A program made the translations under genes and the position numbers. Source: Maribacter polysiphoniae (GTDB lineage: Bacteria; Bacteroidota; Bacteroidia; Flavobacteriales; Flavobacteriaceae). From it: 64,000 nucleotides of DNA. The notes under the pieces were generated by a model. The model was given only the letters and a program-made list of their open reading frames with translations. It was not told the DNA's origin and ran no database searches. The stretch lies in contig NZ_QGGQ01000001.1 of the NCBI RefSeq assembly GCF_003148665.1, positions 637,762 through 701,761 of the forward strand. The letters run 5' to 3'. Each line of letters starts with the position of its first letter. Within the stretch, counting starts at the first letter, position 1. Shown one piece after another: positions 49,283 through 63,887 of the stretch.

Positions 49283-51246
49283 TCGTTCACTTTTAAGGAT
49301 AGTCCGTTATTATTGTAAAGATGGTCGGCCACTTGGAAATAGGAAATGGTTTCTTTAAGAAAATCCTGGTTCATAGGCTTTGCAACCAAACTATTGTCAT
49401 CTCTTTTCCAATTATAGAAATTAGCCTGTTTTTGATCCCCTAAGACCATAAGTTCATGACCCTTTAATAGTCCTAATTTTCTATAGTTGCCAATAAAGGC
49501 ACGTTCATCAGTCTCTTCCATTTTTAGAATGTCCTGTCCAAAAAGGTTACTTTCATAAGTCCAACCCAATTGTGCAAATAATGTGGGGAAGATATCGACT
49601 TGGGAACAAAGTCTGTCAATATGCTGTTTTTCTACACCATCAAGATTTAATATCATTGCCGGAATATGATAATTGGCTACATCGAGTTCCCAACGACCAG
49701 CACTGCTGGCACAATGGTCGGCCATTAATACGAAAACGGTATTTTTAAACCAAGGTTTTTGTTTTGCATTTCTTAAAAATTCTTGAATTGCGAAATCGGT
49801 ATACTTAATGGCTCCGTATCTTCCTGTACCTGATGGAATACCAATCTTATTGGCAGGATAGGTGTATGGCTTATGGTTCGAAGTCGTCATTATAAAATCA
49901 AGGAAAGGCCGTCCTATGGCAAAAGCCGAATCGGCTTCTTTTAGCACCTTTTTATAAATATCCTCATCACAAACCCCCCAGGCATTTTCAAAAGTCACTT
50001 CTTCATCCGCGATATTCTTACGATTGGTCACAATATCCGCAGATGGCAGAAATCCTCTTCCCCTGTCCACAATGTCAAATCCATTACCACTGAAATATTT
50101 GTCCATATTGTCAAAATATCCGTCGCCCCCATAAAAGAACGTCCTTGTGTATCCTTTACCCCTGAATATCTCGCCAATGGTAAAGAGATTATTGTTTTTC
50201 TCTCGTTTAACAATACTTCTCCCAGGCGTTGGGGGAATTGAAAGTGTAATGGCTTCCATTCCGCGAACTGTCCTAGTGCCAGTTGCCATTAAATTGTCGA
50301 ACGATAGTCCCACTTGCGATAAGGAATCCAATGTTGGGGTCAACATATTATCATTGCCAAAAGCTCCCAAATATTTTGCGCTTAAACTCTCAATGCATAT
50401 AAAAATAATGTTAGGTTTCTTCTCTTTACCATCATTCCTAATATACCTCCGTATGCCCGTAGATGGCGTATAGATGCTGTCTTGAAAGGTCTTTATGTTT
50501 CCATTTACCTTTAAGAACGCTTCTTCGATCGGCTCGGTTTTGTAAAACTCAGGATAGCTAAGTTCATTATTCCGAAAAGCTGCAAAAAAAGAATAAATAC
50601 CTGCTTTTGAAAGCTCATTGTTATAGCGATTATCTGAAATCTCGGCATTTTCATTTTTGATAAACAAAGTAAAAATCAACGCAATACCCAATATGATTAC
50701 ACTTGGTAGCAAGCGGATTTTAAATGGATCCGTACTTTCAAAAGTTCTTTTGAATATCCGTAATCTTATAAAGAGTAAAACCGTAAGCATTACAAGTATT
50801 CCAATACTTCCAACCAAAATAGGTATAGGGTATGATTCATTTATATTCTTAACTACCTCGTAAGTGTATATTAAATAGTCAACTGCAATAAAATTGAATC
50901 TTCTCTGAAATTCGTCCCAAAAAGTGATTTCTGCAAAGAATGAAAAGAAGATTATTAGCACGCCCACTATAAAGCCTGAATAACAAATAACCCTATCGGC
51001 CATAGTACCAATAAGACCTTTGGGTACTATCAAAAAATATAAAGTAGCGATTAGGGCAAAAAATGAAACGGTTCCGATATCGTAAAAAAGCCCAATAAGG
51101 AATGTGGTAAACACGGTAATAACACCATGGTCGATTTCCGAAAAATTCCAAATAAGAAAAATGACTCTCAATAACAAGGAAATTCCTAGGAACAAAAGGA
51201 TGAAGCCTTTTAACAATTCGAACCGTTTTGTAAATGCTATTTTCAT
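49279..51246 (-). CDS. LTA-synthase-like phosphoglycerol transferase (sulfatase fold)
   Basis: 655 residues: five N-terminal membrane helices (about 12-30, 42-60, 62-80, 88-106, 142-160, with another near 180-197) and an extracytoplasmic alkaline-phosphatase/sulfatase-like domain from about 275. Catalytic features: NIIFICIESLSAKYLG (metal Glu286), GTRTVRGMEA with Thr326 as likely nucleophile, and FVLMADHCASSAGR as the distal metal site. LtaS/OpgB enzymes move glycerol phosphate from phosphatidylglycerol to an envelope acceptor and release diacylglycerol. Overlaps both neighbours by 4 nt. Confidence 0.92.
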   Translation of the reverse strand: MKIAFTKRFELLKGFILLFLGISLLLRVIFLIWNFSEIDHGVITVFTTFLIGLFYDIGTVSFFALIATLYFLIVPKGLIGTMADRVICYSGFIVGVLIIFFSFFAEITFWDEFQRRFNFIAVDYLIYTYEVVKNINESYPIPILVGSIGILVMLTVLLFIRLRIFKRTFESTDPFKIRLLPSVIILGIALIFTLFIKNENAEISDNRYNNELSKAGIYSFFAAFRNNELSYPEFYKTEPIEEAFLKVNGNIKTFQDSIYTPSTGIRRYIRNDGKEKKPNIIFICIESLSAKYLGAFGNDNMLTPTLDSLSQVGLSFDNLMATGTRTVRGMEAITLSIPPTPGRSIVKREKNNNLFTIGEIFRGKGYTRTFFYGGDGYFDNMDKYFSGNGFDIVDRGRGFLPSADIVTNRKNIADEEVTFENAWGVCDEDIYKKVLKEADSAFAIGRPFLDFIMTTSNHKPYTYPANKIGIPSGTGRYGAIKYTDFAIQEFLRNAKQKPWFKNTVFVLMADHCASSAGRWELDVANYHIPAMILNLDGVEKQHIDRLCSQVDIFPTLFAQLGWTYESNLFGQDILKMEETDERAFIGNYRKLGLLKGHELMVLGDQKQANFYNWKRDDNSLVAKPMNQDFLKETISYFQVADHLYNNNGLSLKVNE

Positions 51247-51848
51247 CTTATTCGTATTAATTGTTTTAGTTTGTTTAAATTTTCTTGTTTCCCTTTTTCC
51301 AAGACCTCTTTGCCATATGCGGTCTTAAACCGATACTCCTCCAGAAATTTAATATTGAGGAGATGCCATTCTTTATCGGTCATAACGGTGTCACAAAATA
51401 GTTCCCATTCCTTTCGCAAGAGCATATTCCTGTACATGTAATTAGTTGTTCCCAAATGGAACAAATCGGCATCGCAAAGTACTTTGTCATATACATTCAA
51501 AGGGTTTTGGGGCATCTTTGTGGCATCGATACAAGAAAGCACCCTTTCAATTTCGGTTTGTGAACAATTGGTTTTTGAAAGATATTGAGCAGCCAATCGT
51601 TTACTTACTTCTTCGTGTCCTTCATAGGTTTCCGAGAAACCTGTATCATGAAAGCAAGCCGCAATAGCTATGAAATCCACTTCTTTTGGTTGTAATCCTA
51701 TGGCATTGGAAATCAGAAAAACGTTGTCGATTACTTCTTGCGTATGGGCAAAGTTGTGGAAGGGGAGATTCTTGCATTTGTCATTTTGAAGAATCTCCGA
51801 ACAATACCTCGTAATGCTTTTAATTGTCATCGCTGTCATTGTCCGCAT
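51243..51848 (-). CDS. HD-domain phosphohydrolase-like protein
   Basis: 201 residues. HNFAHTQEVIDNV gives the first His, ACFHDTGFSETYEGHEEVSKRLA the HD pair and a further His, and CDADLFHLG the distal Asp, a complete HD metal site. Substrate (nucleotide or cyclic dinucleotide) unknown. The N-terminus overlaps the upstream DUF2231 gene by 29 nt; Met7 (51830) is an alternative start with 11-nt overlap. It sits between the metal efflux and lipid genes in one run of overlapping genes. Confidence 0.88.
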   Translation of the reverse strand: MRTMTAMTIKSITRYCSEILQNDKCKNLPFHNFAHTQEVIDNVFLISNAIGLQPKEVDFIAIAACFHDTGFSETYEGHEEVSKRLAAQYLSKTNCSQTEIERVLSCIDATKMPQNPLNVYDKVLCDADLFHLGTTNYMYRNMLLRKEWELFCDTVMTDKEWHLLNIKFLEEYRFKTAYGKEVLEKGKQENLNKLKQLIRIR

Positions 51849-52311
51849 CTAAATGAATCATATCAGCATCATGTCTAATTTCGGTATGGCGAATCACACC
51901 TCCGCTCAATCCTACATATTTGGAAATTATTGTCGAGGCCATAGCGAATAGCAAAACAATTGAAAAACCATATTTAGTGTATTTCGATTTTTTGTAGTGT
52001 AAAAACAAAGCGGCAAGGGACACCCCACCTAAAATCACAATAGTTGTAAAAAACAATTCTGCATATTCTTCATGGTTATGTAAAAGTGTTTCGCTTACTC
52101 CAGAAAAATCCCCAACAATTTCCGCTGCCCCTTCACCTGTATTAAAGGAAGCAATGGATGTCAAAGCACTGAATACAAAAATACCCAGTGATGTATTTTT
52201 TACTTGGTGGTTCTTTATGATATAGCCTGAAATCAATACCAGAAAACCAACCAAAACACCAACAATGGGTAGATGGTTTGCCACTAAATGTAAATGTGAG
52301 TCGTTCATCAT
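51820..52311 (-). CDS. DUF2231-like four-helix membrane protein
   Basis: 163 residues, four membrane segments (about 10-30, 40-58, 84-104, 112-131). His-rich spots at both membrane faces: HLHLVANHLPI at the start, LLHNHEEYAEL after helix two, and GGVIRHTEIRHDADMIHLDAD at the end. The same scaffold (H-x-H-x3-H-x-PI, HEE, GG near the last helix) recurs in the DUF2231 protein at 58810-59277. Conserved membrane His pairs suggest heme or metal binding, but that is inference. It follows the adaptor gene by 27 bp. Confidence 0.8.
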   Translation of the reverse strand: MMNDSHLHLVANHLPIVGVLVGFLVLISGYIIKNHQVKNTSLGIFVFSALTSIASFNTGEGAAEIVGDFSGVSETLLHNHEEYAELFFTTIVILGGVSLAALFLHYKKSKYTKYGFSIVLLFAMASTIISKYVGLSGGVIRHTEIRHDADMIHLDADNDSDDN

Positions 52312-52338: not shown

Positions 52339-53508
52339 TTACTCTGTTATCAAGTTAAATGCTCCATTGGTTAGAAATTCCGTATTTGGTTTAAAATCAG
52401 CTGCATTAAGGATTTGGGTAAATCCATTGTTTGTAGCACCTATTTTGACCAATACCCTTTTGAAGTTTGTATTATCTTTTTTTACAAGTACAAAAAAGTC
52501 ATTATCAATGTTGGCAACAGCTTCGGATGGTAATGCAGGATGTTCTGCTGAAGTGGTCAGGATTTCAGCCTCAATGTACATTCCAGGGGCAAATAGTTGT
52601 ACTTCCTCATCATTTACAAGATCCCCATGTATCTCCACGGTTCTACTTTGGGCATTTATCGACTTGTTGACTAAATGAACCACACCTTTATATACATTGT
52701 TCATGTCATTTTGCAACCTTACATTGATTTGCTGACCTTTTTTAACCATAGGTAGGTCCTTTTCAAAAATCTTCAATTCTATGTGAAGGTCGTCGGTATT
52801 GGTGACGGTTAAAGCAACATCAGAAGGGTTTAGGTACATTCCTTTACCTGCGTTTATTGTAGTTGAATAACCTGATAATGGCGAAACCACACTAATGACT
52901 GATTGAATATTTTCGCCCGTAAGGGTATTCGGATTGATGTTCATAAGGCTCAACTTCTTTTTAAGGGATTGGTATTGTGCCATGGTCACGGTATATTCCG
53001 ATTCGGCCTTTAAGAAATTCTTTTTTGAAGTCACATTATCGGCCATCAATTCTTTTTGGCGTTCATAATCGGATTTTAAATAGCTCAAACGTCCTTTGGC
53101 TTCCAAGAAATCTTGTTGCACCTGAACATATTCCGGGTTTTCAATGGTGAACAATACTTGACCTTTTTCAACCTTATTCCCAGGCAATAGACTGATGTCC
53201 TTTACGTAGCCGGCAAAATAGGCGCTAACATCGGCTTGGTTCTGTGGAGGCACTGCGAACATACCGTTCGCTTTCACAACAGTATTAAACTCCTGCATCG
53301 ATATTTTCCCCAAAGCCATTCCACCCGATTTAAATTGATTTTCGGTAATTATTATTGCATCTTGGTCTTTAATCCCCGTCGTTACATCTGTGTTGGCCGT
53401 TTCTGGTTTTGCTTTTGGGTTACAGGAAGCCAATGTTAGTGTCAGTAGTAAAAGAATGCTTGTTAAACTTATAACATGGGTAAAATTGTTGACTATATTT
53501 TTCATCAT
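52339..53508 (-). CDS. RND metal-efflux periplasmic adaptor lipoprotein
   Basis: 389 residues with lipoprotein signal ending LTLASCNP (Cys about 29). The membrane-fusion-protein layout is clear: barrel-sandwich half (AYFAGYVKDISLLPGNKVEKGQVLFTIENPEY), alpha-helical hairpin (QQDFLEAKGRLSYLKSDYERQKELM, KAESEYTVTMAQYQSLKKKL), second lipoyl half (VVSPLSGYSTTINAGKGMYLNPSD), beta-barrel and membrane-proximal domain. It bridges the pump and the channel of the fused upstream protein. The pump's TAA and this ATG share one base (TAATG), a strong sign of coupling. Confidence 0.94.
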   Translation of the reverse strand: MMKNIVNNFTHVISLTSILLLLTLTLASCNPKAKPETANTDVTTGIKDQDAIIITENQFKSGGMALGKISMQEFNTVVKANGMFAVPPQNQADVSAYFAGYVKDISLLPGNKVEKGQVLFTIENPEYVQVQQDFLEAKGRLSYLKSDYERQKELMADNVTSKKNFLKAESEYTVTMAQYQSLKKKLSLMNINPNTLTGENIQSVISVVSPLSGYSTTINAGKGMYLNPSDVALTVTNTDDLHIELKIFEKDLPMVKKGQQINVRLQNDMNNVYKGVVHLVNKSINAQSRTVEIHGDLVNDEEVQLFAPGMYIEAEILTTSAEHPALPSEAVANIDNDFFVLVKKDNTNFKRVLVKIGATNNGFTQILNAADFKPNTEFLTNGAFNLITE

Positions 53509-57868: not shown

Positions 57869-57927
57869 CAAATGTATTTGGTGTACCTAAGAGCCATCTA
57901 AATGGTTTCTTAAGATTTGCTTAAGAA
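57869..57927 (-). promoter_or_regulatory. Promoter and response-regulator box of the metal-efflux operon
   Basis: Complement of 57869-57876 is TACATTTG, a -7 box 27 bp before the pump ATG. Upstream, CTTAAG direct repeats start at 57909 and 57920 (11-bp spacing), 33 and 44 bp beyond the far end of the -7 box. The 18-bp string TTCTTAAGATTTGCTTAA is identical to the one before the response-regulator gene. Confidence 0.8.
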
Positions 57928-57950
57928 TGGTTTCCCTTTGGTAAATGATA

Positions 57951-57981
57951 AAAAACAAAAGCCCTGAAAATTATTCAGGGC
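57951..57981 (-). terminator. Terminator of the DUF2231-rubrerythrin operon
   Basis: On the minus strand GCCCTGAA/TTCAGGGC (57961-57968 with 57974-57981) is followed by TTTTGTTTTT. It separates this operon from the pump promoter. Confidence 0.88.
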
Positions 57982-58024
57982 CTTTGCCAATCGCTACTAA
58001 ACACTAACCATCAATCAAAAATCT

Positions 58025-58732
58025 TTATAGCGCGTCTATTTTAATAAATAATTTTGCATCGGTCATGGAAATTTCACAGCGCGATGGTGCTGTGGTCGCA
58101 TAGGTGTTTCCGCAAGTTGGGCATAGATAATACACTGAAGGCAATGATTTTACATTTCCTTCTTCCAAAACTTTTAAAGCATTTATATAAAAATCCCTGT
58201 GCTTTTGTTCTACTTTGTATGCATAAGTCAAACTTATTTGTGCCATATAATTACCTGCTGCATTGGCATCCTTGATGAAGTTTGGGTACATTGTATTAAA
58301 CTCATAGCTTTCGCCTTCAATGGCATTCTTTAAATTCTCCTTGGTTGTTCCTACACTAAATTCTGGAGTAACGGTTGGTATTTCCTCTCCCATTCTTTGA
58401 ATAACGACTTTATGATTATTGGCGTGTATCAATTCCGCCCCGGATGCCGCCTTGAAAAGCAGCGCTATTTCCGGGTAGCCTTCTTCAGCCGCTTTTTTAC
58501 TGAAAGCGGCATATTTAGCATGTGCGGTCGTTTCACCTTTAAATGCATCTTTCATATTTTGAATGGTTGATTTTTGAGGGTCCTCTTTTTCTTTAACTAC
58601 CGCCATGGCTGTTTCAGCCACTTCTTTTGACGGTTTGATTTCAATTTTGTCTACTGTATTATTCTTACAAGATTGAAAAAGCATACTTGTGAATACCATT
58701 CCAATTGCTAATACCACTACTGATTTTTTCAT
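58025..58732 (-). CDS. Exported rubrerythrin lipoprotein
   Basis: 235 residues from ATG 58730-58732. Signal MKKSVVVLAIGMVFTSMLFQSC is a lipoprotein signal (Cys22). The ferritin-like diiron domain has FKGETTAHAKYAAF, ASGAELIHANNH, EGESYEF and YKVEQKHRDFY, supplying the four Glu and ExxH ligands. The rubredoxin-like tail has YLCPTCGNTYATTAPSRCEIS: the fourth Cys is Ser. Rubrerythrins reduce peroxide; an envelope location is unusual and the altered rubredoxin site may need another electron donor. The frame is open upstream to 58948, but that part overlaps the DUF2231 gene and lacks a signal. Confidence 0.92.
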   Translation of the reverse strand: MKKSVVVLAIGMVFTSMLFQSCKNNTVDKIEIKPSKEVAETAMAVVKEKEDPQKSTIQNMKDAFKGETTAHAKYAAFSKKAAEEGYPEIALLFKAASGAELIHANNHKVVIQRMGEEIPTVTPEFSVGTTKENLKNAIEGESYEFNTMYPNFIKDANAAGNYMAQISLTYAYKVEQKHRDFYINALKVLEEGNVKSLPSVYYLCPTCGNTYATTAPSRCEISMTDAKLFIKIDAL

Positions 58733-58809
58733 TTTATTTATTTTAAATATTTGACTAAGTGTATGCCCACATTTTCGTGGATTTTCTATGTCTTTTTTAA
58801 GATTCGATT

Positions 58810-59277
58810 TTAGTTGGTTGATTGATCTCCAAAATCGGGTAGTGCCAATTCTATACCTGCCCCGTGTTGAAAAACCAATTGTCCACCTAAATATCCTGTT
58901 CGTGCCACTGAACCAACTAAGGCCGTAAATAGGATGACCCCTACCCATTTAGACCATGTTCTTTCATATTTGAAATAGTACAATGACACACGAAATAATG
59001 CCGTTATACTAGCAAGCCATAACGTTATGGTTGCAGCTTCCTCGTGTAGTTCCATGGGTTTTTGTAGAATACCATCCATCATACCGTCCCCAGCATAACT
59101 TCCGCTTATATAAGCTACTATTGCCCCCAAAGCACCTAATAGCAAAAGATAAAATGAGGTATTTTTTAAAAACTGTTTTTTACTGATAAGAGCTATGATT
59201 TCTGAGAAAAATCCAACTAGGATCAGGGCAATTGGAAAGTGGATAACCATTGCGTGAATGTGTGGTGATGTTAACAT
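58810..59277 (-). CDS. DUF2231 four-helix membrane protein
   Basis: 155 residues, four membrane helices (about 10-28, 38-60, 82-98, 112-130). Conserved-looking His: HIHAMVIHFPIALI at the start, MELHEEAATI after helix two, and GGQLVFQHGAG after the last helix. It is a paralogue in layout of the protein at 51820-52311. It leads into the rubrerythrin gene 77 bp downstream, and its promoter carries four 11-bp-spaced TTAAG repeats. Co-regulation with an exported peroxide-reducing protein makes a heme- or redox-linked role plausible. Confidence 0.85.
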   Translation of the reverse strand: MLTSPHIHAMVIHFPIALILVGFFSEIIALISKKQFLKNTSFYLLLLGALGAIVAYISGSYAGDGMMDGILQKPMELHEEAATITLWLASITALFRVSLYYFKYERTWSKWVGVILFTALVGSVARTGYLGGQLVFQHGAGIELALPDFGDQSTN

Positions 59278-59302
59278 TTTAATGTGATTTTGAATTACAC
59301 AT

Positions 59303-59359
59303 CAAATGTATAGGCACCAACTTAAGGCTGAATTAAGTGAAACTTAAGTTTGGCTTAAA
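59303..59359 (-). promoter_or_regulatory. Promoter and fourfold regulator box of the DUF2231-rubrerythrin operon
   Basis: Complement of 59303-59310 is TACATTTG. Repeats start at 59321, 59332, 59343 and 59354, exactly 11 bp apart (cttaag, attaag, cttaag, cttaaa). The last two are 33 and 44 bp beyond the -7 box, as at the pump promoter. The outermost repeat contains the stop codon of the sensor kinase. Confidence 0.8.
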
Positions 59360-60728
59360 ATGAGATGGTGAACGTTGTACCTACACCAAATTCACTATCT
59401 ACATAAATTTTGGCGTTTATGGCATCGGCGGCCTTTTTGGCTATGGATAGACCTAAACCGTTTCCCGGGATGTTTTTATGGTTTAGGGCATCGGATCTAA
59501 AAAAGCGTTTGAACACATTATTTAGATCCTCTTTTTTAATACCGATACCTTCATCTTGGATTTTACAGATTATTTTTGAATCCATACGTGCGATTTCGAT
59601 ATGTATTGTGGAAGCCTCCTTAGCATATTTTATGGCATTTCCTATAATATTTTCCATGATCAATGTGGTGTAATATTGAGGTGCCATTTCTTCCAATAAA
59701 ACCCCTTTCTGGAAAGCTATTGTAAGTTTCTTTTGTAAGATAGGAGTCTTGTGCCTAGAAAGAATTTCGTCTATTATGTGAGGTAAAGGGACCAAAGAAC
59801 GGTCAACTGTTCTTGAATTGACATCTAACCTGGCAAGCAGTAAAAGTTGTTCAATCGTGGCGGTCATCCGATCTATTTCCGTAAGACTACATTTGATTTT
59901 ATCCTCATATTCCGATCGCTCTCTGGGCTTTCGAATCAATACCTCAAGCGTACCTTTTAATGTTGATAAAGGTGTTCGTAATTCGTGGGAAGCGTCAGAG
60001 GTAAATTGCCGCTTTCTTTCGATAGTATTTTCAATACGCTGTAATAGCTCGTTAATGCTAAACGACAAATCGTAGAGCTCATCTTTGTTATGTGGAAGAA
60101 TAACCCTTTCATTCAAACTATTCTGCGTAATTCTTTTTGTTGTTTCGGTTATAACCTTTACAGGTATAATCCCTCGCCCTGCCAAGTATCTGGACATGAA
60201 ATATAGTCCCGCTAAAAGAAATAAATAAGAAACAATCAAAACATTTCTTAGATTAAGCAATACCATTTTTGAGGATTCCAAGGACATGGCCGCTAGAATA
60301 AAGCCTTTGATCTTTCCATTCTGCTCGATAGGGATTTGAACTTGTCGGATAGCCCTATTGTTGAGGGTTTCGTTAAAGTGACCGCCAAATTTTTGCTCAG
60401 GATTGTAAGCGAGGACATGATTTTTCAGGTTTGGGGAATTATCCATAAATTTCCCGTTTTTATCCAATATTTGGATAAAAACAGGGTTTATCTGTACTTC
60501 TAGGTGTTCCCTTTCTTCCCACTCCTTTTTGTTCTTTATCTTAATACTATCCCCGACAATCCTTATTTCGTCGGTATGTTTTTCAGCCTCGAAAGATAGG
60601 TCATTGTCAAGATTTTGGTATACCGTTCCCTGTACTACAAAATAAACAACTGTAAAAGCCACGGCCATGGTCACGGCGGTGGCAATCATATAATGTAATG
60701 CTATTCTGTTTTTAAAACTTAATCTCAT
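59355..60728 (-). CDS. CusS/CopS-like sensor histidine kinase
   Basis: 457 residues. Helices at about 10-32 and 163-180 enclose a periplasmic sensor domain of 130 residues; then HAMP (about 183-236), HisKA with His248 (FTSDASHELRTPLSTLKGTLEVLIRKPRE) and HATPase (ENIIGNAIKYAKEA, DEGIGIKKED, NGLGLSIAKKAADAI). The H-box followed by a long RKPR segment is typical of metal-responsive CusS/CopS kinases. The signal is probably a metal ion, given the pump. Its start overlaps the response-regulator stop by 4 nt. Confidence 0.95.
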   Translation of the reverse strand: MRLSFKNRIALHYMIATAVTMAVAFTVVYFVVQGTVYQNLDNDLSFEAEKHTDEIRIVGDSIKIKNKKEWEEREHLEVQINPVFIQILDKNGKFMDNSPNLKNHVLAYNPEQKFGGHFNETLNNRAIRQVQIPIEQNGKIKGFILAAMSLESSKMVLLNLRNVLIVSYLFLLAGLYFMSRYLAGRGIIPVKVITETTKRITQNSLNERVILPHNKDELYDLSFSINELLQRIENTIERKRQFTSDASHELRTPLSTLKGTLEVLIRKPRERSEYEDKIKCSLTEIDRMTATIEQLLLLARLDVNSRTVDRSLVPLPHIIDEILSRHKTPILQKKLTIAFQKGVLLEEMAPQYYTTLIMENIIGNAIKYAKEASTIHIEIARMDSKIICKIQDEGIGIKKEDLNNVFKRFFRSDALNHKNIPGNGLGLSIAKKAADAINAKIYVDSEFGVGTTFTISF

Positions 60729-61393
60729 ATTTCTTTAGCTACATAGCCTACCCCACGGACGGTTTGAATATAGTTTTCATCTTCACTTAACTTTAATTTT
60801 TTTCGAAGTGCATTAATATATACGTCAATCACTCCAGTATTGTATTCGAAATGGATATCCCAAACACTTTCAATGATTCGGGTTCTTCGGCAAACGATAC
60901 CCTTGTTCCGCATTAGATATTCCAACAAGGCAAATTCTTTTTGGGTAAGACTAATTTCTTCTTCAGATTTAAAGACTTGATGGGTTGCAGTGTTCAAGGT
61001 AATGTTCCCAAGTTTAAAAATGGAATGTTCCCCGGATTTAGGTCTTAGTTGGACCTTTATCCGTTCCAAAAGTTCTTCAAAATGAAAAGGCTTTTTGATA
61101 TAATCGTTAGCGCCGGATTGAAGACCGAAAATGGTTTCATCAACGGTGTCTTTTGCTGTTAAAAAAATAACTGGCGTTTCTTTATACTCCTTTCTGAATA
61201 AACGACAGATTTCAATACCACTGACACCAGGTAACATCCAATCCAATAGCAACAAATCATATTCCCCGGAAAGAGCCAGTTGAAGACCTTTATTGCCCTC
61301 ATCGGCAATATCCACTGCATACGATTCTTCTTCCAATCCTTGTTTTAGGAAGTTGAATATACCTGGCTCATCTTCTACGATTAATATTCTCAT
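60725..61393 (-). CDS. OmpR-family response regulator of the metal regulon
   Basis: 222 residues. Receiver domain with Asp51 (LLLLDWMLPG), Thr/Lys switch residues (FLTAKD, IKKPF), then an OmpR winged helix (LTQKEFALLEYLMRNKGIVCRRTRIIESVWD, VDVYINALRKKL, IQTVRGVGYVAK). OmpR-type proteins bind as head-to-tail dimers to direct repeats 10-11 bp apart, exactly what is found before its own gene, the pump operon and the DUF2231 operon. Operon with the sensor kinase (4-nt overlap). Confidence 0.96.
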   Translation of the reverse strand: MRILIVEDEPGIFNFLKQGLEEESYAVDIADEGNKGLQLALSGEYDLLLLDWMLPGVSGIEICRLFRKEYKETPVIFLTAKDTVDETIFGLQSGANDYIKKPFHFEELLERIKVQLRPKSGEHSIFKLGNITLNTATHQVFKSEEEISLTQKEFALLEYLMRNKGIVCRRTRIIESVWDIHFEYNTGVIDVYINALRKKLKLSEDENYIQTVRGVGYVAKEI

Positions 61394-61819
61394 ACTACAA
61401 AAGTTACGTATTTAAATTAAAGCGACATTAGACTTTTCTTAAGATTTGCTTAAAAAGGTTTTGCAATAATCCATGGGTATTGAAAATGAATCGACTTGGT
61501 GTAAACTGAAGGTATTACAATTAACTGGGGGGGAATTCACTTGTTAATTAAAACAAAGAAGTTTCCGGTCTAAATTATTAGATATATTGTTACCGAATAA
61601 TGTCGTTTTGTAACCTTACGCTTTTTGAAGCATACCCTAAAACTTTATAACATCAGAATTTCGTAATTCATCCTTAATTTGATCCTATATAAAAATAAGA
61701 ATTCCATATTATGAATTATTTGCGAATTCGGTAAGGCAACAAAGGGTAGGGTAAAACCACCATATCTGAAAATGGGGGATTCAATCGCTTAGATGCCATT
61801 TTATAGTATGTAAACCAAA
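61394..61819. other. 426-bp gene-free stretch upstream of the response regulator
   Basis: The left 60 bases hold the autoregulated promoter (separate entry). The remaining 360 bases are AT-rich (many short A/T runs) with no coding frame and no strong hairpin. I see nothing else I can support, nor a T-rich terminator after the leftward OM protein gene ending at 61820. Confidence 0.5.
61399..61454 (-). promoter_or_regulatory. Autoregulatory promoter of the two-component genes
   Basis: CTTAAG/CTTAAA repeats start at 61438 and 61449 (11 bp apart). The 18-bp TTCTTAAGATTTGCTTAA (61436-61453) is identical to the pump operator. The -7 box is imperfect (complement of 61399-61406 is TAACTTTT); the repeats lie 32 and 43 bp beyond it. 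Confidence 0.72.
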
Positions 61820-62734
61820 CTAAAGGGTTTTCTTGTCCAAATCAAGTAAATAACCCACGGATAGGTTAAAAAAACCGGTTGTTTTTAAATCAGTTTCTGA
61901 TTTTACGGGAGAAGGAAGGTTAATGTTATACCCAGCCTCAAAATCCCAAGATTTGGTAGATATCGAAAAAGGCAAGTTAATTTGGGTGTTCAGCAAATCG
62001 AAAATATCATCATAAATAATTTCGGTTGACGGTTCAGTGACTTGAGCGTTTAATTGCTCCAATGCAATGGTTTGTTGTGCGATAAGAAAATTGATTTTAG
62101 GTCTAAATTTCACTACTGACTTTTTTTGTCTTGCAATGGTTATGTTGGCATATGTTCGGGATGATATTTGAAAAGATCCATCAGTACCGAACAAATAGGA
62201 AATACCGAGTGTAGTTCCTAGGTTTCGTTTTTTGGTTCGTAAACCGACACCTAAACTTAACGAGTTTGTAAAGGTGTCCCAACCATCGGCATAAAAAAAT
62301 CGGGTATATTCAGCATTATAGGTCACCCGTTTATCCTTTCCCATAGTGTTGAAATAACCCACTGACACATTGGTATAATCCCAGTTTGGTTCAAAGGTTT
62401 CGTACAAAATACCGGAAACACTTACATTGAATCCCGAAGAATTATAATAGGATACTTGTGGAACGATACTGAATTGGTCAATGCCGGAATCGCGACCAGA
62501 GAAAAACGTATTATTATAAAACGATGTGTTTACGTAAATGAAATTATAGGTATTGAATGCGTTTAAAATATCATCTATAAATTGTTGTTCGTTAAAGAAA
62601 AGTTCATCCAAAAGTAAATCTATTTCATCCTCTTCCGGTTCTTGGGCATATAAATCAACAGAGGTTGCCACTGTAAACAGTAGCAACCAAACTGCGAGTA
62701 ACCTTTTGTTCAATATGGCACGATGGGGTTTCAT
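61820..62734 (-). CDS. Predicted outer-membrane barrel protein
   Basis: 304 residues with signal peptide (about 28 residues, ending VDLYAQ) and an acidic start EPEEDEIDLLLDELFFNEQQ. The rest has alternating aromatic/polar strands (FIYVNTSFYNNTFFSGRD, VSYYNSSGFNVSVSG, LSLGVGLRTKKRNLGTTLGISYLFG) ending FFNLSVGYLLDLDKKTL. No family recognised. It is 13 bp after the Spy-like gene, so it is probably the last gene of the sigma-factor operon. Role unknown. Confidence 0.75.
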   Translation of the reverse strand: MKPHRAILNKRLLAVWLLLFTVATSVDLYAQEPEEDEIDLLLDELFFNEQQFIDDILNAFNTYNFIYVNTSFYNNTFFSGRDSGIDQFSIVPQVSYYNSSGFNVSVSGILYETFEPNWDYTNVSVGYFNTMGKDKRVTYNAEYTRFFYADGWDTFTNSLSLGVGLRTKKRNLGTTLGISYLFGTDGSFQISSRTYANITIARQKKSVVKFRPKINFLIAQQTIALEQLNAQVTEPSTEIIYDDIFDLLNTQINLPFSISTKSWDFEAGYNINLPSPVKSETDLKTTGFFNLSVGYLLDLDKKTL

Positions 62735-62747
62735 CTTCTAGTGGATA

Positions 62748-63263
62748 TTAATTTCCTCCTCCATTTCCGTTCCCGTTTCCACTACCGGAACCTTGTCCGT
62801 TTCTACCGCGTTCACCATCACCTCCAAAACCATTTTGATTTCTCATTTCACCTTGACCGCTAGATTGCCTGTTTTGTTGTACGCGTTCACGTAACATTTG
62901 GCGTTGCTCTTGAGTCAAGGATTGTCTGAATTGGTTTCTTACTTGACGCAACTGACCTTCTTGATTTTCACATAATTGGTTTTGTTGATCGGAGAAAGAT
63001 TCCCTTAATCGTAATCTTATTTGTTCCCTTGTTTGGGTTTTGTCCTGTAAAATGGCCAACTGTTCATCGGTCAACGTGGCTCTCAGTTGTTCCCGATTCT
63101 GTAACATCAATTTGCGTTGTGTTTGTAGCATTTCTTGTTGTTCCGTTGACAACTGGTTCATGATCGGGGAAAGATCGGTTTCTTGTGCAAAAAGAAAACT
63201 ACTTGAAGTTAAAAGCATGACAAAACCGAAAAGTGCGATTAATGTTTTTACTGTTGTTTTCAT
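62748..63263 (-). CDS. Spy/CpxP-like Gln/Arg-rich periplasmic protein
   Basis: 171 residues: signal MKTTVKTLIALFGFVMLLTSSSFLFAQ, then a helical domain with LSTEQQEMLQ, LTDEQLAILQ, FSDQQNQL and LTQEQRQML, LTxxQ-like repeats of Spy/CpxP and periplasmic metal-sensor families. Residues of about 135-171 are a disordered Gly/Asn/Arg tail (GSGSGNGNGNGGGN). Spy-like proteins chaperone unfolded or metal-stressed envelope proteins; CnrX-like members sense metals. One Cys only (CENQ). Position after a sigma factor and an anti-sigma-like gene favours a sensing role. Confidence 0.8.
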   Translation of the reverse strand: MKTTVKTLIALFGFVMLLTSSSFLFAQETDLSPIMNQLSTEQQEMLQTQRKLMLQNREQLRATLTDEQLAILQDKTQTREQIRLRLRESFSDQQNQLCENQEGQLRQVRNQFRQSLTQEQRQMLRERVQQNRQSSGQGEMRNQNGFGGDGERGRNGQGSGSGNGNGNGGGN

Positions 63264-63335
63264 GATTATGATTTTATATTGTTAAGTGCTTTTAATTATT
63301 AGAACCTGAAAGTTTGAAAAAGTTTGTTTTAAATT

Positions 63336-63887
63336 TTATAAAACGACATTTTCAATAAGGCTTTTGTCGATGTAACTATTTATTAATGAATCTTCTATAA
63401 GAAGGGAATTGATAAATATATTTTCCAGTTGTTGTTCTGATAATTCCGCATCAACGATAATTTCATTCAAAATAATTTCATCTATGAATTCATCCATATC
63501 GGCATCTTCGACAAGCAATGAGGATACTAGAAAATCATCGGAATATACATCCATTGAATTTATTTGCTCAACATTTGCATTTTGTTGTTCAATGGTTGTT
63601 GGGTCATTTTGCAGCCAAATAGTAAAACCTATCAGTAAAACAATTGAAGCTGCAATCGGATAGGCTATCATTGGTTTTAGCCCAAACACGGTTCGTTTTT
63701 GTTCTTTTTCCATGGGTAAACTTTTTAAAATATTGTTATTGGATATAGAGAAATAGTTATCCGGAACATCCATTCCTAGATACTCTTTATGCTTTTGGGC
63801 AAGTTCTTTTTTATCGAAATTATCTTTTAAAAAGCCATTTCCGTCCTGCCCAATATGGTTCTTACTGTTTTTATTCTTCTTTGCCAT
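63336..63887 (-). CDS. Single-pass membrane protein, probable anti-sigma partner
   Basis: 183 residues. Cytoplasmic N-terminus of about 70 residues rich in Lys/Asn/Asp, one membrane helix (about 74-91, IAYPIAASIVLLIGFTIW) and a very acidic extracytoplasmic tail. The tail has an imperfect internal repeat, SSLLVEDADMDEFID and NSLLIEDSLINSYID. No anti-sigma family domain is recognisable by eye, but its place 24 bp after a sigma-factor gene and its topology suggest that function. Confidence 0.65.
   Translation of the reverse strand: MAKKNKNSKNHIGQDGNGFLKDNFDKKELAQKHKEYLGMDVPDNYFSISNNNILKSLPMEKEQKRTVFGLKPMIAYPIAASIVLLIGFTIWLQNDPTTIEQQNANVEQINSMDVYSDDFLVSSLLVEDADMDEFIDEIILNEIIVDAELSEQQLENIFINSLLIEDSLINSYIDKSLIENVVL

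Follow-up and report, generated by a model that had tools for sequence, protein, structure and literature searches.

Whether the operons that surround a two-component pair are controlled directly by that pair is the question raised by a 64,000-nucleotide stretch of the Maribacter polysiphoniae genome (contig NZ_QGGQ01000001.1, positions 637,762 to 701,761; hereafter the window). Here, the genes of a response regulator (RR) of the OmpR/PhoB family and of a sensor histidine kinase lie beside a DUF2231–rubrerythrin operon and an RND efflux pump operon, and a box of CTTAAG-like half-sites precedes each of the three transcription units. Direct activation of the three promoters by the adjoining pair had been proposed in an initial annotation of the sequence. 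In this study, direct autoactivation and activation of the pump and DUF2231–rubrerythrin operons were found to be well supported by comparative sequence analysis: a composite of the box and a core-promoter element occurs only at these promoters, it co-occurs with the RR in other genomes, and the box stands upstream of the RR gene itself. Binding and activation are the deduced part of that proposal. A metal-type two-component regulon of Bacteroidota is very probably the best explanation of the locus as a whole.

The 18-bp string TTCTTAAGATTTGCTTAA on which the proposal had drawn is present at 57907-57924 and 61436-61453, and the related CTTAAG-N5-CTTAAA is present at 59343-59359. The distances of 33 and 44 bp (32 and 43 bp at the RR gene) given from the -7 box are correct if they are counted from its TA end; the 1-bp offset of the RR gene arises because the element there is TA-N3-TTTG, whereas it is TA-N2-TTTG elsewhere, and the spacing from the box to TTTG is identical. 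Two half-sites 11 bp apart, as originally described, occur at all three promoters; however, each array contains four, the other two being weaker and in the same register (Table 1). On the transcribed strand, counted from the start of the distal half-site, the half-sites begin at 0, 11, 22 and 33 and TTTG begins at 53 at every one of the three promoters, with the ATG at 83 (pump), 82 (DUF2231) and 61 (RR). At the DUF2231 promoter, the distal half-site reaches into the 3' end of the kinase gene. The two weaker half-sites of each promoter cover the -33 region, in which a TTG consensus was not visible by eye. If the -7 box lies at -12 to -5, as it does in Flavobacterium psychrophilum according to the available text of PMC9723704, the array extends from about -61 to about -23. 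A sigma-70-type promoter scan gave 15 matches compared with 12.6 by chance and was not informative here.

In the window, CTTAAG-N5-CTTAA has five exact matches on both strands, all of which fall at the three promoters. The eight exact matches in the 5.13-Mb genome reduce to five places once overlapping strand matches are joined, namely the three promoters and two sites inside open reading frames (ORFs; contigs C2 and C13). The composite site, defined as box-N35-37-TTTG, occurs three times in the genome, each time at one of these promoters, and not at all in the reversed control. Many copies away from promoters had been named beforehand as the outcome that would speak against the proposal; bare copies proved to be few, with two of the five places inside genes, and the composite is confined to the three promoters.

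The box is conserved at related regulator loci. The best 80 of 227 loci found were taken as relatives, 79 of which have usable upstream DNA (L077 has 3 bases); among them, by record title, are Flavobacteriaceae, Cyclobacterium, Dyadobacter, Algoriphagus, Fulvivirga, Saprospiraceae and a Calditrichota bin. When at most two mismatches of 12 to CTTAAG-N5-CTTAAG were allowed, a box was found to start at -62 (18 loci), -61 (42) or -60 (6) from the RR ATG, that is, in 66 of the 79, with no mismatch in 8, one in 52 and two in 6 and with the consensus (T/A/C)TTAAG-N5-CTTAAG. Such a position in front of the regulator's own gene is as autoregulation predicts.

The core promoter is equally regular at these genes. 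Relative to the ATG, TTTG begins at -8 in 58 of the 79 RR loci but in only 5 of 489 other ORFs, and all 58 are among the 66 loci with a box at -60 to -62 (34/42 at -61, 18/18 at -62 and 6/6 at -60, compared with 0/13 of the remainder). In the window (61391-61406) the G of TTTG lies 5 nt before the A of the ATG, and when the -7 position from the accessible part of the F. psychrophilum study (PMC9723704) is applied, the +1 of the RR gene falls on that A. The RR mRNA is predicted to be leaderless, its start codon coinciding with the transcription start; such a transcript would be expected to fix the TTTG–ATG distance and to leave the box–ATG distance free to vary, as is observed. Leaderless mRNAs make up only 5.5% in F. 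psychrophilum, as stated in the text available from the same source (PMC9723704).

Further targets were sought with a position-specific scoring matrix (PSSM) trained on 41 unique RR boxes, which these boxes match by construction. At a threshold score of 16, 216 sites were obtained in the 80 loci plus the window compared with one in the reversed sequence, some of them possibly counted twice through 11-bp register shifts. By label, 62 are of the regulator class and 154 lie elsewhere. Among the latter, 18 still precede RR ORFs for which a longer start had been called, 119 precede other ORFs, and 17 lack an ORF start within 300 bp, including the DUF2231 site of the window, the gene of which was dropped by the ORF caller. 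With targets grouped by BLAST linkage, pump-type genes predominate downstream (80 sites in 61 of the 81 sequences scanned), followed by DUF2231 proteins (13 sites in 10 sequences), rubrerythrins (6), thioredoxin-like proteins (5), Rieske proteins (4) and the VIT family (3); rarer targets, in pairs or singly, include HD-like, glycosyltransferase-like, haem-binding and DUF302 proteins. The VIT targets hint that the regulon handles iron or manganese, and iron or redox stress is a possible theme of the rubrerythrin, VIT and haem-binding targets together. The VIT-family protein, which by eye has a ferritin-like N-terminal part, follows the box by 153–214 bp in L034, L037 and a third locus.

The spacing and the four-unit array recur at these sites. 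Of the 154 sites labelled as outside the RR class, 99 have TTTG at 53 or 54, and 57 of the 62 RR-class sites have it at 52–54. When the match to a TT(A/T)AG core was averaged over unique rows, the pump promoters (75 rows) gave half-site peaks at 0, 11, 22 and 33 (z of 6.1, 6.0, 4.4 and 4.1), with the signal at background at -22, -11 and 44. Offset 22 is weak (z of 2.0) and offset 33 clear (z of 3.5) at the RR promoters (57 rows); the corresponding values at the DUF2231 promoters (10 rows) are 2.7 and 3.5.

Furthermore, the composite site follows the regulator from genome to genome. It is present in 10 of 10 genomes with an RR of at least 65% identity compared with 9 of 239 others in a family set of 249 genomes, and in 10 of 11 compared with 12 of 384 in a phylum set of 395; the two sets overlap, carriers G000 and G125 being in both. 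The ten family carriers have 25 composite sites in total, 21 of them no more than 5 kb from the RR gene. The 10 composite matches in the nine other family genomes are no more than chance, given that the reversed control yields 26 over the 249 genomes. Three family genomes without the RR (L089, L090 and L105) have a similar composite site in common; the gene that follows it in L089 and L105 is presumably riboflavin ribB-like, as judged by eye and recall. In L090 the site has a different spacer. The shared site was taken for an inherited chance match.

Several points weigh against direct control by the adjoining pair. The Fisher tests on these counts (p of 4e-13 for the family and 3e-13 for the phylum set), assume that related genomes are independent, as do the column counts. 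One genome, G475, has an RR of 65% identity and no exact composite, and is the miss of the phylum set. Among 120 phylum genomes in which the best RR match (E of 1e-60 or better) is at most 64% identical, the exact composite occurs in four; it lies within about 1.5 kb of an RR of 59–62% identity in two of these (G338 and G494) and on another contig in the other two, and none of the 79 of the 120 that belong to a single family (f18) has it. The bare motif shows no enrichment: with at most two mismatches it occurs 32 times in the window compared with a shuffle mean of 27.5, exact forward and reverse matches in the genome number 8 compared with 8 in the reversed control, and a related pattern with one mismatch gives 76 genomic matches (39 + 37) compared with 208 (102 + 106) in the reversed control. 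Enrichment of the bare motif was rejected as evidence, since the counts are at or under the control level; what exceeds chance is the location and geometry of the sites, not the frequency of the motif. Finally, 13 of the 79 RR genes have no box at -60 to -62. Six of these have a one-mismatch box at -102 to -123 and L039 has a two-mismatch box at -105, and in the other six a box was not found within 200 bp upstream.

These 13 loci would also suit a different reading, in which a different regulator, either a one-component factor or a further RR of the OmpR family, recognizes the box, and the adjoining pair is merely a target or a neighbour. In five Dyadobacter, one Algoriphagus and L039, seven relatives in all, the box nearest to the RR gene is 102–123 bp upstream of the ATG, and the genome of the window encodes at least four further near-full-length matches to the PmrA model. 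The reading is nevertheless improbable: it must contend with the co-occurrence of the composite with this RR across the family genomes and with the clustering of the carrier sites around the RR gene. In addition, PhoB- and PmrA-type dimers bind tandem direct repeats, as described in the available text of PMC3973317.

At more distant members, PSSM scoring was carried out around 18 chosen RRs, 16 of about 55–65% identity plus G196 and G317 at 68–70%. At +2024 to +2185 from the RR ATG, which is about where the kinase gene of the window ends, box-like sites stand in 11 of the 18 when a permissive score of at least 9 is accepted, and 6 of the 18 have one that scores at least 16. In L148–L151 no box-like site was found anywhere in the scored stretches at a score of at least 9, and in L154, L155 and L164 such sites lie solely upstream on the opposite strand. 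The presence of the box at distant members at a score of at least 9 is suggestive only. As to the spread of the regulator, the RR of the window and that of Maribacter aquimaris (L009) share 100% identity; identity is 86 to 100% within Maribacter (L009, L010, L022 and L046), yet 88% in a Fulvivirga (L036). Such a patchy distribution, together with the presence of an RR of at least 65% identity in 10 of the 249 family genomes, suggests that the RR has spread horizontally.

A second alternative accepts the RR as the protein that binds and reverses its effect: as a repressor, it would block polymerase with arrays over -61 to -23 until metal arrives. The coverage of the -33 region by the two downstream half-sites would favour this role; however, the strongest half-sites lie upstream of the -33 region in constant phase to the -7 box. 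Upstream sites at a constant phase to the core promoter are the usual arrangement of an activator. Moreover, AgrR is described in the accessible portion of PMC7380067 as a metal RR that activates its own gene with Type II placement, and repression appears very unlikely, even less probable than control by another regulator. Chance or low-complexity AT-rich repeats, which the palindromic nature of CTTAAG in AT-rich DNA and the bare-motif counts might bring to mind, are virtually eliminated by the conservation and geometry over 79 RR loci and by the composite-site and PSSM statistics.

From the site anatomy, the constant geometry, the conservation and the co-occurrence with the RR, we infer the following course of phosphorylation, binding and activation for the regulon. 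The kinase would sense excess metal, probably divalent, and then phosphorylate the RR. Two head-to-tail RR dimers would fill the four 11-bp-spaced half-sites at about -61 to -23 from the transcription start, the strong upstream pair probably being bound first, with extension onto the weak downstream pair over the -33 region. The dimers would recruit sigma-A polymerase to the TAnnTTTG box in a class II, PhoB-like manner. The RR would in this way activate its own predicted leaderless gene together with that of the kinase, the RND–membrane-fusion protein efflux operon and the DUF2231–rubrerythrin operon.

Table 1. Features of the locus, with positions in the window; protein assignments are from Pfam and NCBIfam profile searches in which model scores were compared with curated cut-offs.
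Feature	Position	Strand	Remarks
RR promoter, four half-sites	61449-61454, 61438-61443, 61427-61432, 61416-61421	-	TTTAAG/CTTAAG/TCTAAT/TTTAAT
RR gene -7 element	61398-61406	-	TA-N3-TTTG
RR, OmpR/PhoB family, 222 aa	60725-61393	-	Response_reg and Trans_reg_C (PF00072, PF00486)
Sensor histidine kinase, 457 aa	59355-60728	-	HATPase_c, HisKA, HAMP; overlaps end of RR gene
DUF2231–rubrerythrin promoter, four half-sites	59354-59359, 59343-59348, 59332-59337, 59321-59326	-	TTTAAG/CTTAAG/CTTAAT/CTTAAG
DUF2231 operon -7 element	59303-59310	-	TACATTTG
DUF2231 membrane protein, 155 aa	58810-59277	-	PF09990
Rubrerythrin-family protein, 238 aa	58025-58741	-	PF02915; nigerythrin/rubrerythrin models under cut-off
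Terminator-like hairpin between rubrerythrin gene and pump promoter	57954-57988	-	Consensus scan only
Pump promoter, four half-sites	57920-57925, 57909-57914, 57898-57903, 57887-57892	-	CTTAAG/CTTAAG/ATTTAG/TCTTAG
Pump operon -7 element	57869-57876	-	TACATTTG
RND efflux permease fused to TolC-like outer-membrane channel, 1444 aa	53508-57842	-	CusA/CzcA family; ACR_tran and OEP
Membrane-fusion protein, CusB/HlyD type, pump operon	52339-53508	-	PF16576; abuts pump gene
Co-directional gene, 163 aa, perhaps pump operon	51820-52311	-	No Pfam match
Co-directional gene, HD-domain-like, perhaps pump operon	51243-51848	-	20.5 bits, under cut-off of 22

With regard to the genes themselves, the permease passes the HME-RND model TIGR00914 with 1144.3 bits (cut-off 701.45). 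Its residues Q578, E628 and E678 align with M573, M623 and M672 of CusA, which we take to be the methionine triad with a role in that pump, and a CusA-type triad of the Cu(I)/Ag(I) type is therefore lacking; it also carries the motif DFGIIIDGAVIIVE at residue 400, presumably a mark of the divalent type of HME-RND pump. As judged from the lack of the CusA methionines, divalent metals are a more likely substrate than Cu(I) or Ag(I). The hairpin upstream of the pump promoter suggests that the pump operon is a separate transcription unit; terminator-like hairpins in the region number 5 in the consensus scan, compared with a shuffle mean of 2.8. Upstream of the RR gene, three genes on the same strand (304, 171 and 183 aa) occupy 61820-63887 and have no Pfam or NCBIfam match at 0.001.

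The general mechanism of such a regulon is familiar. In the open-licence literature, no title or abstract start among the matches listed describes the box or the regulon in Bacteroidota, and none concerns the pairing of box and protein, the four-unit array or a leaderless autoactivated RR in this phylum. The regulon is nearly complete and readable from sequence, comprising a regulator, a box, a spacing rule and targets. To our knowledge, activator–promoter geometry has been little studied in Bacteroidota, and the 53/54-nt spacing to the -7 element of this phylum makes class II activation by an RR testable there. The conserved RR gene, predicted to be leaderless, would provide a natural case of a start codon coinciding with the transcription start, and the sharing of one hexamer code by proteins that differ in their recognition residues offers a test case for the evolution of DNA specificity in the OmpR family.

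The place of the RR among known systems can be stated in these terms. It has the receiver and winged-helix DNA-binding domains of the OmpR/PhoB family (PF00072 and PF00486), and direct repeats at 11-bp steps (units at 0, 11, 22 and 33) stand at its target promoters, compared with about 10–11 bp for the family. The array resembles the tandem boxes of PhoB at pstS and of Bacillus subtilis PhoP, in which several direct repeats at 11-bp steps lie over the -35 region, and has four half-sites ending near the core promoter; it differs from them in the half-site sequence and in the Bacteroidota -7 box.

The box itself resembles that of PmrA (BasR), in which 6-bp half-sites are arranged head to tail with a 5-bp spacer, and the same 6-5-6 hexamer pattern is found here. 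The available text of PMC3973317 gives CTTAAG/XTTAAT in Salmonella and CTTAAT/CCTAAG in Klebsiella, and that of PMC10927774 gives TTTAAGNNNNNTTTAAG in Acinetobacter baumannii; the region upstream of eptA in Escherichia coli K-12 contains CTTAAGGTTGGCTTAAT, which fits YTTAAD-N5-YTTAAD exactly. The reverse complement of the consensus box (57887-57925, 59321-59359, 61416-61454), CTTAAGATTGGCTTAAA, is close to this eptA sequence, including part of the spacer. The polarity of the dimer toward the promoter could be flipped relative to PmrA; this is noted and not concluded, because the half-sites are quasi-palindromic. The RR differs from PmrA in that it is only 37% identical to E. coli BasR and scores 159.2 bits against the PmrA model cut-off of 330, and the four-unit array, the metal efflux targets and the core promoter are also different. 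The DNA-contact residues of PmrA are K153, T187, N188, H193 and H195, with H193 and H195 proposed to set specificity, in the part of PMC3973317 available; among the 80 RRs, K is retained in 80 and T in 79, whereas N188 is replaced by G or S, H193 by Y or F and H195 by N in all 80. The model score and the contact residues rule out that the RR is PmrA.

The RR is closer to CusR/CzcR than to PmrA, as far as sequence comparison indicates. The top NCBIfam models are TIGR01387 (cztR_silR_copR) for the RR and TIGR01386 (cztS_silS_copS) for the kinase, the RR is 42% identical to E. coli CusR, and it stands beside a CusA/CzcA-family pump; however, both models score under their curated cut-offs (225.2 compared with 279.2 bits and 207 compared with 292.55 bits, respectively). 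Positive autoregulation and Type II activation are described for AgrR, and the boxes of AgrR (ATKACANNNNTGTMAT), CopR and PcoR are described as inverted repeats, with extra direct repeats at some AgrR operators, in the available text of PMC7380067. By contrast, the repeats here are direct at 11 bp, although the quasi-palindromic CTTAAG is compatible with either orientation of the protomers. It appears somewhat more probable than otherwise that these features together represent a phylum-wide metal circuit of Bacteroidota, in which a CusR/CzcR-like RR with its own leaderless mRNA would read a PmrA-like CTTAAG code via different recognition residues, a four-unit array replacing the -33 element.

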